64,000 nt of DNA. Origin: Gemmatimonadota bacterium (GTDB lineage Bacteria; Gemmatimonadota; Gemmatimonadetes; Gemmatimonadales; Gemmatimonadaceae). Below the pieces are notes generated by a model that was not told the origin of the DNA, did no database searches, and worked only from the letters and a program-made list of their open reading frames with translations. The position numbers and the translations under genes were made by a program. The DNA lies in the NCBI GenBank assembly GCA_016194585.1, contig JACQBG010000036.1, forward strand, positions 1 through 64,000, given 5' to 3'. The stretch's first letter is position 1. Each line of letters starts with the position of its first letter. Of this stretch, positions 12,145 through 20,290 are shown one piece after another.

Positions 12145-12468
12145 ATGGCAGACATCACGTCGCAACCCAGCTACGCCGAACTCTCCCCCGCCCTGCAGGG
12201 CCAGGGGGAGGTGCCCCTCTCGATGCTCCTCGACCTCGCGCTCCCGGTCTCGATCGAGCTGGGACGCACGAAGATGAGCGTGCAGGAGATCCTGCGCCTC
12301 GGGCGCGGCTCGGTCATCCAGCTCGAGCGGCTGGCCGGCGAACCGGTCGACATCTACGTCGGCGACCGCCGCTTCGCCGAGGGCGAAGTGGTCGTCATCG
12401 ACGAGCACTTCGGCATCCGTCTCACGTCGGTCGTGCAGATGTTCAACGCGAGCGAGAACGCCGCGTGA
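12145..12468 (+). CDS. fliN: Flagellar motor switch protein FliN
   Basis: FliN forms the lower C ring with FliM and binds FliH during export. The 107-residue protein is essentially a single SpoA domain: LSMLLDLALPVSIELGRTKM, then EILRLGRGSVIQLERLAGEP, then DIYVGDRRFAEGEVVVIDE. There is no CheC-like extension, so it is the short FliN type and not FliY. I chose the ATG at 12145 because the SpoA domain starts shortly after it. The stop overlaps the fliO/P GTG start by four bases. Confidence 0.95.
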   Translation: MADITSQPSYAELSPALQGQGEVPLSMLLDLALPVSIELGRTKMSVQEILRLGRGSVIQLERLAGEPVDIYVGDRRFAEGEVVVIDEHFGIRLTSVVQMFNASENAA

Positions 12469-13715
12469 CCATCGGCTCCTTCGTCGGCGTGCTGGGGATG
12501 CTCGGGCTGGTGCTCGGGCTCCTGGTGCTGACGTTGCGCCTGCTCAAGCGCTACGCGCCCATCGGCGCGAGCGCGAACGCGCGCATCCCCCTCGAGGTGG
12601 TGCAGCGGCTCGCGGTCGGACCGCGACAGGGGATCGCCATCGTCCGCCTCGGCGAGCAGTACGTCGCCGTCTCGATCGGCGACGGCGGCGTGCGCACGCT
12701 GCTCGAACTCGACGCGCCGGCGCACGCCGCGCCAGTGCCCGTGATGACGCCCACCACGCCGGCGCCGGGGGCCTTCGGTGGCGCGCTGCGCCAGGCGATC
12801 CGGCAGTCGACCGGGCTCGCACTCGTCATCGCCGTCGCCGCCGCGTCGGCGCGCGCGCAGGGTGCGCCCGCCAAACCGGCGCCGGCGACCGACTCGTCGC
12901 AGGCGAACTCCCTACCCGCGAAGCCATCGGCGCCCGCCGCGAAGCGCGCGCCCGCCAAGGCCGCGCCCGCCAGGGCCGCGACGGCGAAGAGCGCGTCCGT
13001 GCCGGTGTCGAACGCACGCGCCGACACCATGCTCACCAAGCTCGCGCCGCGCATCGACCTGCGCGTCGGCGAGTCGAACGGCGGCCTGCGACTCTCGGGC
13101 ACGGTCGGCGTCGTCGTGATGATGGGGCTGCTCACGCTCCTCCCGACCGCCGTCCTCATGATGACGGGGTTCACGCGCATCTTCATCGTCCTCCATTTCC
13201 TGCGCCAGGCGATGGGCACGCAGAGCGCCCCGCCGACCCAGCTCATCGCCGCGCTCGCGCTCATCCTCACGGGCTTCGTGATGGCGCCGACGCTCGCCGA
13301 GGTGAACCGCACCGCGCTCGAGCCGTGGATGGACGGCAAGATCGAACAGGGCGCGATGCTCGCCGAGGGGGTGAAGCCCTTCCGCGCCTTCATGCTGCAC
13401 CAGGTGCGCGAGCGCGACCTCGCGACGTTCATGGACCTGAGCCGGCAACCGCGCGTCGCGAGCGCCGCCGACGTGCCGCTCGTCGTGCTCGTCTCGGCGT
13501 TCGCGACGAGTGAACTGCGCATCGCCTTCCAGATCGGGTTCGCGCTCTTCCTCCCCTTCGTCGTCATCGACGTCGTCGTCGCGTCGGTGCTGATGTCGAT
13601 GGGGATGATGATGCTCCCGCCGGTGATGGTGTCGCTCCCCTTCAAGCTCCTCCTCTTCGTGCTCGTGGACGGGTGGTCACTGCTCGTCCAGGGCCTCGTC
13701 CAGAGCTTCCGCTGA
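12465..13715 (+). CDS. fliP: FliO-FliP fusion protein of the flagellar export gate
   Basis: FliP, FliQ and FliR form the export gate; FliO helps FliP assemble. This 416-residue protein joins both in one frame. Residues 1-90 look like FliO: a membrane helix (VLGMLGLVLGLLVLTLRLL) and the small domain PLEVVQRLAVGPRQGIAIV. A hydrophobic segment with an AxA-like end (about 115-133, ALVIAVAAASARAQ) resembles the cleavable signal peptide FliP normally carries. An Ala/Pro/Lys linker follows, then a complete FliP core from about 208 (TGFTRIFIVLHFLRQAMGTQ, DVPLVVLVSAFATSELRIAF, and the MMMLPPVMVSLPFKLLLF end). No stop or frameshift separates the parts. The GTG start overlaps fliN. Confidence 0.9.
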   Translation: MTIGSFVGVLGMLGLVLGLLVLTLRLLKRYAPIGASANARIPLEVVQRLAVGPRQGIAIVRLGEQYVAVSIGDGGVRTLLELDAPAHAAPVPVMTPTTPAPGAFGGALRQAIRQSTGLALVIAVAAASARAQGAPAKPAPATDSSQANSLPAKPSAPAAKRAPAKAAPARAATAKSASVPVSNARADTMLTKLAPRIDLRVGESNGGLRLSGTVGVVVMMGLLTLLPTAVLMMTGFTRIFIVLHFLRQAMGTQSAPPTQLIAALALILTGFVMAPTLAEVNRTALEPWMDGKIEQGAMLAEGVKPFRAFMLHQVRERDLATFMDLSRQPRVASAADVPLVVLVSAFATSELRIAFQIGFALFLPFVVIDVVVASVLMSMGMMMLPPVMVSLPFKLLLFVLVDGWSLLVQGLVQSFR

Positions 13716-15888: not shown

Positions 15889-17969
15889 GCACGATGGTCC
15901 TCCCCGCCGCCGGCGACGCGCGCCGCGCGCGCATGGCCGAGGTCGGCGTCGCCATCGCCGTCGTCTTCGTCATCGCCCTGCTCGTGGTGCCGCTGCCGCC
16001 GTTCATGCTCGACCTGTTCCTCTCGCTCTCGATCGGCGTGTCGCTCGTCGTGCTCCTCGCGGCGCTCTACACGACCGACCCGCTCGAGTTCAGCTCGTTC
16101 CCGGCGCTCCTCCTCCTGCTGACGCTCTTCCGGCTCGCCCTCAACGTGAGTTCCACCCGCCTCATCCTCGGGCAGGGACACGCCGGGCAGGTGATCCAGG
16201 CGTTCGGGCAGTTCGTGATCGGCGGCAACTACGCCGTCGGCCTCGTGCTCTTCCTCATCCTCGTCGGCATCAACTTCATCGTCATCACGAAGGGCGCCGG
16301 CCGCGTCGCCGAGGTCGCGGCGCGGTTCACGCTCGACGCGATGCCCGGCAAGCAGATGGCGATCGACGCCGACCTCAGCGCCGGCCTCATCGACGAGGCG
16401 ACGGCGCGCGAGCGGCGGGCCACGATCAGCCGTCAGGCCGACTTCTACGGCGCGATGGACGGCGCCTCGAAGTTCGTGAAGGGCGACGCGATCGCCGGCC
16501 TCCTCATCACCGGCATCAACATCCTCGGCGGGATGTTCATCGGCGTCGTGCAGCGCGGGCTGCCGCTCTCGCAGGCCGCCTCGACATACACGATCCTCAC
16601 CGTCGGCGAGGGACTCGTCGCGCAGATCCCGGCGCTCATCGTCTCCACGGCCGCCGGCCTCATGGTGACGAGCGCCGGCGGCACCCGCCTCGGCAACGTC
16701 CTCGCCACGCAGCTCTCGGCGCAGCCCAAGGCGCTGTACATCGCCGGCGGCGTGCTCGCGACGTTCGCGATCGTGCCGGGGCTGCCGACCGTCCCCTTCC
16801 TCCTCCTCGGCGGCGCCTTCGCCTTCGTCGCGCGCATCGCCACCGGCGCGCAGGCCGAGCGCGCCGCCAAGGTCGAAGCCGACCGGAAGCCGGTCGAGGA
16901 GGCCGCGCCACCGGCGCCGAGTCCGCTCAAGGACCTGCTGCAGCTCGACCCGATCGAGATCGAGGTCGGCTACGCGCTCATCCCGATCGTCGACGAATCG
17001 CAGGGCGGCGACCTGCTGGAGCGGATCGCCCTCCTGCGCAAGCAGGCGGCCGTCGACCTCGGCATCCTCGTGCCGGCGATCCGCATCCGCGACGACGTGC
17101 GCCTCCCCGCGAACGAGTACGTCATCAAGCTCCGCGGCTCGGAGGTCGCCCGCGCCGAAGTGATGCCGCGCTTCGTGCTCGCGCTCGACACCGGCGGCGT
17201 GCTCCAGCCCATCGACGGCGTCGAGGCCAACGACCCGAGCTTCGGCATGCCAGCACGCTGGATCGCGCCGTCGCGCCGCGCCGAGGCCGAAGCGCTCGGC
17301 TACGTCGTCGTCGAACCGACGACGATGGTCGCCACGCACCTCATGGAGACGATCAAGGCCAACGCCGCCGAACTGCTCGGCCGGCAGGACGTGCAGGAGA
17401 TGGTCGAGACGCTCAAGAAGACGCACCCGGCGCTCGTCGAGGAGGTCATTCCGGCGAAGCTGTCGCTCGGCGTGCTGCACCGCGTGCTGCAGCGCCTGCT
17501 GCGCGAGCGCGTGCCGATCCGCGACCTCGTCACGATCCTCGAAGCCGTCGGCGACAACGGCGACCAGGTGAAGGACCCGGAACAGCTCACCGAGCACGTG
17601 CGCCGCGCGCTCGGCAACGTCATCGCCCACCAGTTCATGGGCGACGACGGCGCGCTGCGCGGCATCACGCTCGGCCCCCGGCTCGAGGCCTCGCTCATGG
17701 GGCTCTTCACGCCGCGCGCCGCGCAGCCGGGCACGAGCCTGCTCACCCCCGACTCGCTCGCCGGCCTGCTGCGCGAGCTGCAGCTCCTGAGCGCCACGGC
17801 GCCCGACGCGCGCACCATGCCGCTCATCGTGCCGCCCGGACTCCGCATCGGCGTGCGCCGCCTCGTCGAACCGGTGATGCCGAGCCTCCCCGTGGTGTCG
17901 CTCGCCGAACTCCCCCCCTTCGTGAACGTGAGCGCGGTCGGCACGTGGGAGATGAAGCATGCGGCTTGA
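15885..17969 (+). CDS. flhA: Flagellar export gate protein FlhA
   Basis: FlhA forms the nonameric export ring and couples export to the proton motive force. The 694-residue protein has about eight N-terminal membrane helices and the FHIPEP signature region FRLALNVSSTRLILGQGHAG. The cytoplasmic loop contains KQMAIDADLSAGLIDEATAR. A large C-terminal chaperone-docking domain contains VTILEAVGDNGDQVKDPEQL. The ATG overlaps the flhB stop and the end overlaps flhF by 11 bases. Confidence 0.97.
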   Translation: MSTMVLPAAGDARRARMAEVGVAIAVVFVIALLVVPLPPFMLDLFLSLSIGVSLVVLLAALYTTDPLEFSSFPALLLLLTLFRLALNVSSTRLILGQGHAGQVIQAFGQFVIGGNYAVGLVLFLILVGINFIVITKGAGRVAEVAARFTLDAMPGKQMAIDADLSAGLIDEATARERRATISRQADFYGAMDGASKFVKGDAIAGLLITGINILGGMFIGVVQRGLPLSQAASTYTILTVGEGLVAQIPALIVSTAAGLMVTSAGGTRLGNVLATQLSAQPKALYIAGGVLATFAIVPGLPTVPFLLLGGAFAFVARIATGAQAERAAKVEADRKPVEEAAPPAPSPLKDLLQLDPIEIEVGYALIPIVDESQGGDLLERIALLRKQAAVDLGILVPAIRIRDDVRLPANEYVIKLRGSEVARAEVMPRFVLALDTGGVLQPIDGVEANDPSFGMPARWIAPSRRAEAEALGYVVVEPTTMVATHLMETIKANAAELLGRQDVQEMVETLKKTHPALVEEVIPAKLSLGVLHRVLQRLLRERVPIRDLVTILEAVGDNGDQVKDPEQLTEHVRRALGNVIAHQFMGDDGALRGITLGPRLEASLMGLFTPRAAQPGTSLLTPDSLAGLLRELQLLSATAPDARTMPLIVPPGLRIGVRRLVEPVMPSLPVVSLAELPPFVNVSAVGTWEMKHAA

Positions 17970-18783
17970 ACGGTTCCGTGGCCGCGACCTCGCCACCGTG
18001 TATCGCGACGTCAGCCGCACGCTCGGCGACGACGCGATGATCGCGCACTCGCGCGTCGTGCGCGACGCCGGCCAGACCTACATCGAGGTCGTCGCCGTCG
18101 ACGCCGTCGAGATCGCCCGCTTCCGCCGGCAGCTCGCGCCGCCGGCTCCCTCCGTGCTCCAGCCCGGCGCGGCGCGGCGCGCGCGCCCGTACGCCGTGGC
18201 CCTCGTCGGACCGACCGGCGGCGGCAAGACGCTCACCGCGCAGAAGCTCGCTGTGCACGACGACGCGTTCGGCTTCAAGCGCGCGGGGCTGCTCGCGCTC
18301 GACCCCGACCGCGCCGGCGCCTTCGACCGCCTCCTCCACTTCGCCGACGCGAACGACCTCGACGTCGAGATCGTGCACGACGCGAAAGGGCTGCGCACCG
18401 CGCAGCGCCGCCTCGCCTCGTGCGACGTCGTCATCATCGACACCCCCTCCGTCGCGCCGCGCAGCGAACGCACCACCTGGCGCGCGATGCTGCGCGAACT
18501 CGCGCCCGACGAGACCCACCTCGTCTTCCCCGCCACGACGCGCTTCGACCTCGCCGCGACGATCCGCGAGACCGCCGAGTCGCTCGGCGTCACCCACGCG
18601 CTCCTCACCAAGCTCGACGAGGTGCCGAGCGACGCCAACGTCGCCATGCTCGCCTCGACGCTCGGCCTCCCGGCACGCTGGATCACCGACGGCCAGCGGC
18701 CGTCGGCCGACCTGCGCACCGCCGCGCCGACCATCATCAGCGCGTTCGAGACCGCGCCGAGCGAACAGGGAGCGTTCGCATGA
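17959..18783 (+). CDS. flhF: Short FlhF-like SRP-type GTPase with an altered G3 box
   Basis: FlhF is an SRP-family GTPase that sets flagellar position and number. The 274-residue protein (family commonly 360-430) begins with the FlhF-type segment RFRGRDLATVYRDVSRTLGD. It goes almost directly into the G domain: P-loop GPTGGGKT (Lys90), G2-like DPDRAGA (Asp115) and G4 TKLDE (Thr217-Glu221). The G3 box, normally DTAGR, reads DTPSV (Asp161-Thr-Pro-Ser), so the invariant Gly is lost; GTP hydrolysis may be impaired. The N domain seems much reduced. The gene overlaps flhA by 11 bases and flhG by four. Assignment is firm by position; activity is uncertain. Confidence 0.85.
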   Translation: MRLERFRGRDLATVYRDVSRTLGDDAMIAHSRVVRDAGQTYIEVVAVDAVEIARFRRQLAPPAPSVLQPGAARRARPYAVALVGPTGGGKTLTAQKLAVHDDAFGFKRAGLLALDPDRAGAFDRLLHFADANDLDVEIVHDAKGLRTAQRRLASCDVVIIDTPSVAPRSERTTWRAMLRELAPDETHLVFPATTRFDLAATIRETAESLGVTHALLTKLDEVPSDANVAMLASTLGLPARWITDGQRPSADLRTAAPTIISAFETAPSEQGAFA

Positions 18784-19532
18784 GCGCCCCGCTCTCGCTC
18801 TTCGGCCGCCTCGGCGCGTCGAGCACCAGTGAGGTGCGCGCCGTCATCGTGAGCGCCGCCACCGAGGGCGCCGGCGCCACCACCGTCGCCGCGCTGCTCG
18901 CCATCGCGTCGGCCGCCGACGCGCGGCGCACCCTCCTCGTCGGGCCCCCCGACGACGAGCGCGTGCGCGCGACGTTCATCGGCGACGACGCCGGACCGCT
19001 CGGCATCCGCCTCGCGTCGCTCGCCGACGGCGACCGCCGCGCCGCGCTCCGCCGACTCGCGCCCGCCATGCGCGATCACGACCTCGTCGTCATCGACGCC
19101 GGGTCGCGGCTCGACACCGTCGTCGCCGCGACCGCCGCGCTCGAGGCGTGGCACGTCGTCGTCACCGCCGGCGTCGACCCCGCGTCGCTCGCCGCCGCCT
19201 ACGCGATGGTGAAGGCGATCGACGAACGCGCGCACCCGATGACGATCGAACTGCTCCTCAATCGGCAGGAACCGGCGCGCGGCGCCGATGCCTGCCGCGC
19301 CGTGCAGAGCGCCGCCGGCCGCTTCCTCGGCCGCGACCTCCGCTACGCTGGCACGATTCCTGATGATGAAGAACTCCGGGCGGCGAATCTTGCCGCCCTC
19401 CCGTTGCCGTTCGTGGCCGACCGGCTTCGCGCCGGACAGGCCGGCCTGCACTTCGCTTCCCGATTGATCGCTGAGATCACCACCAAAGCGCTCGCCACGC
19501 ATGCGGCGCGACAGCACTCCTGGAGAGACTGA
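18780..19532 (+). CDS. flhG: FlhG/MinD-like protein with a degenerate P-loop
   Basis: FlhG (YlxH, FleN) is a MinD-type ATPase that works with FlhF to control flagellar number. The 250-residue protein keeps the fold outline: a first strand AVIVSAATEG, a later VVIDAGSRLDTV (Walker A' region), and a MinD-like middle with AMVKAIDERAHPMTIELLLN. The deviant Walker A, normally KGGVGKTT, is TEGAGATT here (residues 28-35). Both the signature lysine and the phosphate-binding lysine are missing, so ATP binding or hydrolysis is probably lost or changed. Four-base overlap with flhF, and fliA follows two bases after the stop. Confidence 0.82.
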   Translation: MSAPLSLFGRLGASSTSEVRAVIVSAATEGAGATTVAALLAIASAADARRTLLVGPPDDERVRATFIGDDAGPLGIRLASLADGDRRAALRRLAPAMRDHDLVVIDAGSRLDTVVAATAALEAWHVVVTAGVDPASLAAAYAMVKAIDERAHPMTIELLLNRQEPARGADACRAVQSAAGRFLGRDLRYAGTIPDDEELRAANLAALPLPFVADRLRAGQAGLHFASRLIAEITTKALATHAARQHSWRD

Positions 19533-19534
19533 CG

Positions 19535-20290
19535 ATGGACCTCGACCCGATCTGGACACGGTACCGGAAGGGTGACGCCGACGCCCGGCAGCAATTGCTG
19601 AACGAGCACCTCGGTCTCGTCTACTTCGTCGCGCGGCAACTCGCCTCGGGACTCGGCGCGGACGTCGAATTCGACGAATTCGTGAGCGCGGGTACGCTCG
19701 GCCTCATGAGCGCGCTCGAGAGCTTCGATCCCTCGCGCGGACTCGCCTTCAGCACGTTCGCTGCGCCGCGCATCCGCGGCTCGATCCTCGACGAGCTGCG
19801 CCGCCAGGACCACGTGCCACGTTCCATCCGCCGCAAGGCGCGCCAGATCAGCGCCGCGCACGACGCGGCGAGCCGCGCCGACAGCCGCGACGCCGGCGAC
19901 AAGGAGACTGCCGCCCGCCTCGGCGTCGACGTCGAGACGCTCTGGAAGTGGCAGGCCGACATCGAAGGCGCCGTGCACATCCCGCTCGACCGCAAAACGC
20001 GCGAGAACAACGAGGAATCGCCGACCCCCGCCGAGACGCTCGCCTCGCACGAGGACGACATCGAGGACCGCGTCAACTTCGATCAGGAGGTGTCGATCCT
20101 GCGCGACGCCATCCAGGGACTCGGCGAACAGGAACGCATCGTCCTCACGCTCTACTACTTCGAGGAGCTGAAGCTCCACGAGATCGCGTCGATCCTGCAG
20201 CTCACCGAGTCGCGCGTATCGCAGATCCGGTCGAAGGCGCTCGGAAAGCTTCGCAAACAGCTCTCCCCGTTGCGCGCCAACGTCGCCTGA
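19535..20290 (+). CDS. fliA: RNA polymerase sigma factor FliA (sigma-28)
   Basis: FliA directs late flagellar and motility genes. The 251-residue protein has sigma region 2 (LNEHLGLVYFVARQLASGLG, then FSTFAAPRIRGSILDELRRQ), region 3 starting DHVPRSIRRKARQI, and region 4 ending ILQLTESRVSQIRSKALGKL. This architecture matches the FliA/WhiG group. It starts two bases after flhG and is the last gene of the second run, with a terminator downstream. The anti-sigma factor FlgM is not in the window. Confidence 0.95.
   Translation: MDLDPIWTRYRKGDADARQQLLNEHLGLVYFVARQLASGLGADVEFDEFVSAGTLGLMSALESFDPSRGLAFSTFAAPRIRGSILDELRRQDHVPRSIRRKARQISAAHDAASRADSRDAGDKETAARLGVDVETLWKWQADIEGAVHIPLDRKTRENNEESPTPAETLASHEDDIEDRVNFDQEVSILRDAIQGLGEQERIVLTLYYFEELKLHEIASILQLTESRVSQIRSKALGKLRKQLSPLRANVA

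Follow-up and report, generated by a model that had tools for sequence, protein, structure and literature searches.

Whether FlhF and FlhG can still operate as a nucleotide switch once the nucleotide sites of both have been altered is the question raised by the locus described here, which lies in a 64,000-nucleotide stretch of contig JACQBG010000036.1 from a Gemmatimonadota bacterium (the window; genome G000, 3.34 Mb). There flhF (17959–18783, forward strand) encodes a 274-residue signal recognition particle (SRP)-type GTPase, and flhG (18780–19532, forward strand) encodes a 250-residue MinD/ParA-fold protein, an FlhG/FleN orthologue with a degenerate nucleotide site. A sequence-only reading of this DNA had proposed that joint loss of motifs leaves the pair unable to act as such a switch. 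The interpretation we favour, at a probability of roughly 0.5 and argued from sequence comparison, is that an FlhF that binds GTP and hydrolyses it weakly would act beside an FlhG that neither nucleotide cycle any longer engages, through a two-step loss that is complete only in the subclade of the window.

By their profile and structure matches and their gene order, the two proteins are genuine orthologues of the FlhF/FlhG module. FlhF matches Pfam SRP54 (E 6.9e-19) and, at residues 1–50 and 78–163, the NCBIfam FlhF model TIGR03499; because the latter score lies under the family cut-off, the protein is classed by its sequence as a diverged orthologue, and its closest solved structure is FlhF 8r9r. 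FlhG matches FleN by phmmer (E 6.5e-9), and a profile built from 30 family members scores FleN/FlhG at ~1e-48 as against 8e-24 for the best MinD. The predicted FlhG model is of modest confidence (predicted local distance difference test score, pLDDT, 61, and below 50 in a long C-terminal helix at residues 220–249, the end at which FlhG/FleN proteins carry an amphipathic membrane-targeting helix), and its top ten Foldseek matches are all FleN/FlhG chains. Among ParA/MinD proteins the window protein is thus placed with FlhG/FleN, beside flhF; a weak profile similarity to actinobacterial Ssd was also seen. No second intact FlhG was found in the genome with the ParA-type model AAA_31, whose three other matches are two proteins, one ParA-like with KGGVGKT and one Mrp-like, and an open frame of 787 residues that was not looked into. 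The strongest match to the FlhF model in the genome, on contig C41, was set aside as an ordinary Ffh with DTAGR; the TAG there precedes its start codon.

In FlhG the deviant Walker A motif KGGxGK[ST] is absent: the P-loop at 18861–18884 reads TEGAGATT in place of KGGVGKT/S, and both lysines are missing, as the sequence-only reading had observed, while the GxG and the following Thr are kept together with Asp 106 and Asn 161. The N-terminus (18780–18842) lacks the activating helix [D/S/T]QxxxLR of relatives, and with it the DQAxxLR form of this enhancer helix. At 18933–18956 the sequence LLVGPPDD places a Gly where relatives (LLVDxD) have the switch-I Asp, and a gap of ~35 residues relative to other FlhG proteins follows.

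These losses differ in age. The comparison drew on FlhF homologues from 67 genomes of the phylum, and the survey of FlhG stayed within the same phylum. The P-loop lysine of FlhG is present in all eight rows of sister family f2 (GKGGVGKS), which belongs to the same order as the window family, and in none of the 48 rows outside it, which cover the window family and related families, f4 and f5 among them being of the same class only (T in 35 rows, A in 11, V and S in one each). On a tree of FlhF and FliA this loss is a single change; following taxonomy over the gene tree would require two losses or a transfer. The same tree puts f2 outside f4, f5 and f7, which share only the class of the window, and so hints at a transfer of the cluster or a rooting artefact. 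By sequence, the first step was thus a change from KGGVGKS to KGGxGTS/A in the ancestor of the window family and its related families. The resulting FlhG still had its switch-I Asp and a P-loop under constraint, and most lineages also retained a QxxxLR helix. Outside the subclade the family P-loop, GKGGxGTS or GRGGSGTS, is strongly conserved, and in most of the window family QxxxLR and the switch-I Asp are present, the signature residue being K or R. The helix reads DQAxxLR in most f2 rows and QxxxLR in most f1 rows, and is absent from the subclade. It was also lost independently in genera g9, g12 and g19 (L039–L043, L052), where the FlhF motifs are canonical for the class. The first step probably turned FlhG into an ATP-binding protein of atypical kind, slow or locked, comparable to BcsQ and TadZ. 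FlhG without the P-loop lysine occurs also in cultured Gemmatimonas, namely G. groenlandica TET16 (G074) and a genome that carries photosynthetic reaction-centre genes and is putatively G. phototrophica (G039).

The second step is restricted to four genomes, that of the window and G063, G083 and G304, the last with a locus sequence identical to L038 (uncultured Gemmatimonadetes Kiruna2_bin-1709). In all four the FlhF-activating helix of FlhG is missing, as are its signature lysine and its switch-I Asp; three further genomes of the same genus (G057, G302, G299) show the ordinary family form. Among relatives, the loss of the P-loop lysine alone is widely conserved (absent in 48 of 48 rows from the window family and related families), the other losses being local. 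Recent decay of one strain, which would have undone the sequence-only reading, is refuted, and the joint origin of the changes that it had implied is not supported.

FlhF changed in the same subclade. Its G domain is of the SRP-GTPase type, and the P-loop GPTGGGKT (18208–18231) and the G4 motif TKLDE (18607–18621) are intact, so that the protein should still bind GTP, as far as its sequence can tell. Motifs II and III depart from DTYR..EQL and DTxG: at 18301–18330 the window reads DPDR for DTYR and has an Arg (AFDRL) at the Gln of EQL, and G3 at 18439–18453 reads DTPSV. In the alignment, DPDR is confined to the subclade (3 of 67 FlhF rows), G3 is DTPGC in the sister genomes, and DTPGR is the usual form of the class (54 of 67); the exchange of Gly for Ser thus belongs to the window and that of Arg for Val or Cys to the subclade. 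The altered G3 of the sequence-only reading is accordingly there, but the DTAGR against which it was judged is a weak yardstick: its Arg is by alignment no fixed feature of FlhF, since 8r9r has DTAGM and relatives in family f11 have DTAGG or DTAGA. What is special to the subclade, on the sequences compared, is DPDR, the loss of the motif-II Gln, and DTPSV or DTPGC. FlhF had also been called short, and it does depart from the B-N-G domain order, B and G being present and N missing. This shortness is no local loss, however, because the distance from the B motif to the P-loop is ~44–65 residues in nearly all rows from five families, as against 197 in one measured f11 row, and the N domain is missing class-wide. 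Genomes of f11, which belongs to the same phylum, carry a long FlhF near fliA; no FlhG was recognised in them (L069–L074) by the family profile within the stretch read.

The subclade alone shows the pattern to be expected if nucleotide coupling were lost: the enhancer helix, the switch-I Asp and the motif-II Gln of FlhF are missing there, and conservation is lowest in the P-loop region. Over FlhG residues 21–70 mean pairwise identity is 0.52 in the subclade, the lowest of any folded segment, compared with 0.79 in Gemmatimonas and its close kin and 0.73 in f2. We read this difference between groups as relaxed constraint on the P-loop in the subclade and as its continued use elsewhere in the family. 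Residues 181–250 retain identities of 0.76–0.87 in the subclade, the C-terminal half holds 73 invariant columns against 42 (Fisher p 1.3e-4), and the C-terminal third (19320–19529), the most conserved part, ends in HAARQHSWRD. On our favoured interpretation, FlhF would bind GTP, dimerise at the pole and seed the MS ring there, with hydrolysis that is slow or nil. FlhG would neither switch by ATP nor trigger hydrolysis by FlhF, for which a Gln in the FlhG helix is co-catalytic (PMC12826062), and would instead serve as a subunit that binds other proteins by its conserved C-terminal half. Flagellar number would then be set by dosage and binding instead of two nucleoside triphosphatase (NTPase) cycles. 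A broader version, which we hold only tentatively, is that the whole family counts and places a polar flagellum by an FlhG without a conventional ATPase cycle, and that in the subclade FlhG carries no nucleotide and leaves FlhF unstimulated, which would be a natural split of structural from NTPase roles.

The strongest competitor, possible but less probable than the interpretation we favour, is that FlhG remains an ATP-binding, dimerising switch with a lysine-free P-loop, as in TadZ or BcsQ, of which the window form would be an extreme version. The P-loop of BcsQ, RGGVGTT, has no lysine (PMC9178275), and the protein forms an ATP-bound sandwich dimer (PMC11470070); in TadZ both lysines are lost and ATPase activity is reported by way of a lysine of a neighbouring helix, as cited in a passage of PMC10482377. 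Loss of the lysine alone is thus no proof that FlhG has ceased to be a switch, since these two proteins are reported to bind or hydrolyse ATP without it. In most of the family, moreover, the lysine-free P-loop is among the most conserved segments, and the window protein retains the GxG, the Thr, Asp 106 and Asn 161. Against such a switch in the subclade stand the absence of the switch-I Asp together with ~35 residues that would follow it, and a P-loop region that has become the least conserved folded segment.

Besides the two lysine-free ATP-binding proteins, several observations weigh against uncoupling. In genera g9 and g12 the FlhG helix is gone although FlhF retains its motifs, which shows that the coupling of the two losses is not strict. 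Motif II of FlhF keeps its Asp and Arg, and hydrolysis may persist. Single polar flagellation is known of the cousin G. phototrophica and not of the window organism. The AlphaFold model of FlhF alone reached a pLDDT of 49 and was not used. The earlier proposal that the pair is no nucleotide switch is too strong as it stands: it finds partial support in the pattern of loss in four genomes and is weakened by the retained GTP motifs of FlhF as well as by BcsQ and TadZ.

A less likely explanation is that constraint has relaxed ahead of outright loss, the cell having ceased to need control of number and both proteins being in slow decay. FlhG does evolve faster than FlhF and FliA in the subclade, and flhF occurs in just 7 of 18 genomes of the window genus (g1), where the flagellar cluster looks patchily lost. 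Estimates of omega are nevertheless well below 1 (0.11–0.51 for FlhG, 0.11–0.19 for FlhF and ~0.07–0.12 for FliA; rough values, several synonymous distances being near saturation), reading frames are intact in all subclade members, and HAARQHSWRD is invariant in all four. Judged from these sequence comparisons, FlhG and FlhF are kept under purifying selection in the subclade.

Less likely again is a repurposed FlhG that has ceased to act on FlhF and serves, for instance, as a fixed partner of FliA, of FliM/FliN or of the division machinery: the FlhF-activating helix is lost while the C-terminal half is retained, flhG overlaps flhF by 4 bases and ends 2 bases before fliA, and Gemmatimonadota are reported to be without known division-site proteins (PMC11271474), but any such partner is putative and the order flhF-flhG-fliA is constant throughout the class. 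Sequencing or frame error was rejected, since the changes are common to all four genomes and independent assemblies of three related species show like degeneration.

The surrounding genes are those of a flagellum. In the window the order is flhA-flhF-flhG-fliA, with fliA (19535–20290, forward strand) encoding the flagellar sigma factor (TIGR02479, 208.6 bits, above cut-off). The start of FlhG is the ATG at 18780; the open reading frame (ORF) that begins with a GTG at 18420 extends it only mechanically. Pfam models identify FliE, FliF, FliG, FliH, FliI, FliL, FliM, a FliO-FliP fusion, FlgH, MotA and MotB, and FlgE, FliN, FliQ, FliR, FlhB, FlhA, FlgF, FlgG, FlgI and FlgK were assigned by reading ORF sequences, without a profile test. 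From this gene content the flagellar cluster is complete, with no sign of a dying flagellum. FliO and FliP form one fused frame of 416 residues (12465–13715; Pfam FliO at 26–112, FliP at 219–411).

ATP-dependent cycling of FlhG is central to current models. In the library searched no paper on FlhF or FlhG in the phylum Gemmatimonadota was found, and literature searches gave nothing on pseudoenzyme FlhG, a degenerate Walker A or the DTAGR motif of FlhF. G. phototrophica is described with a single flagellum, labelled polar in a figure legend of PMC9862903, and its putative genome encodes an FlhG without the P-loop lysine. Either ATP is therefore bound there without the lysine, or control of number is independent of an ATP cycle, and both alternatives are testable in this cultured organism. 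The subclade adds a graded series, with both, one or none of the lysines and with or without the helix, that lets one ask what elements of the switch are important. In these bacteria of soil and fresh water, FlhF and FlhG, which normally set the position and the number of flagella, have lost parts of their sites stepwise while being kept by selection, and this makes a good setting in which to test whether flagellar placement needs the NTPase cycles.

Compared with the canonical FlhF and FlhG (FleN) of Vibrio, Pseudomonas, Bacillus and Geobacillus, the window pair shares the fold, the orthology, the order flhA-flhF-flhG-fliA and the P-loop and G4 of FlhF; its FlhG lacks both lysines, the switch-I Asp and the DQAxxLR helix, and in its FlhF the N domain is missing and motifs II and III are altered. 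BcsQ, a polar SIMIBI protein of cellulose secretion, has exchanged its P-loop Lys for Thr and kept GG.GT[ST], as most Gemmatimonadaceae FlhG proteins have, but its partners are BcsR and BcsE on cellulose synthase, and the FlhG of the window subclade is more degenerate still. TadZ/CpaE is likewise a polar protein of the ParA/MinD fold, both lysines being lost in TadZ as in the window FlhG, whereas TadZ/CpaE and Ssd belong to other operons with other partners, and sequence and fold searches put the window protein with FleN/FlhG. The laboratory counterparts are mutants of Vibrio alginolyticus with a GTPase-dead or Gly-changed FlhF or a lysine-less FlhG. They are precedents for a dispensable FlhF GTPase: FlhF R334A has no GTPase activity and normal flagella, and flagella are also formed with FlhF G380A, presumably altered at the Gly of DTAG by its numbering with D377, which localises more strongly to the pole but gives reduced motility (PMC6092412). 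FlhG K31A, changed at the Walker A lysine, is non-functional and hyperflagellated, ATP-dependent polar localisation being thought central (PMC7226244), whereas the natural exchange of Lys for Thr in the FlhG assigned to G. phototrophica goes with one flagellum.

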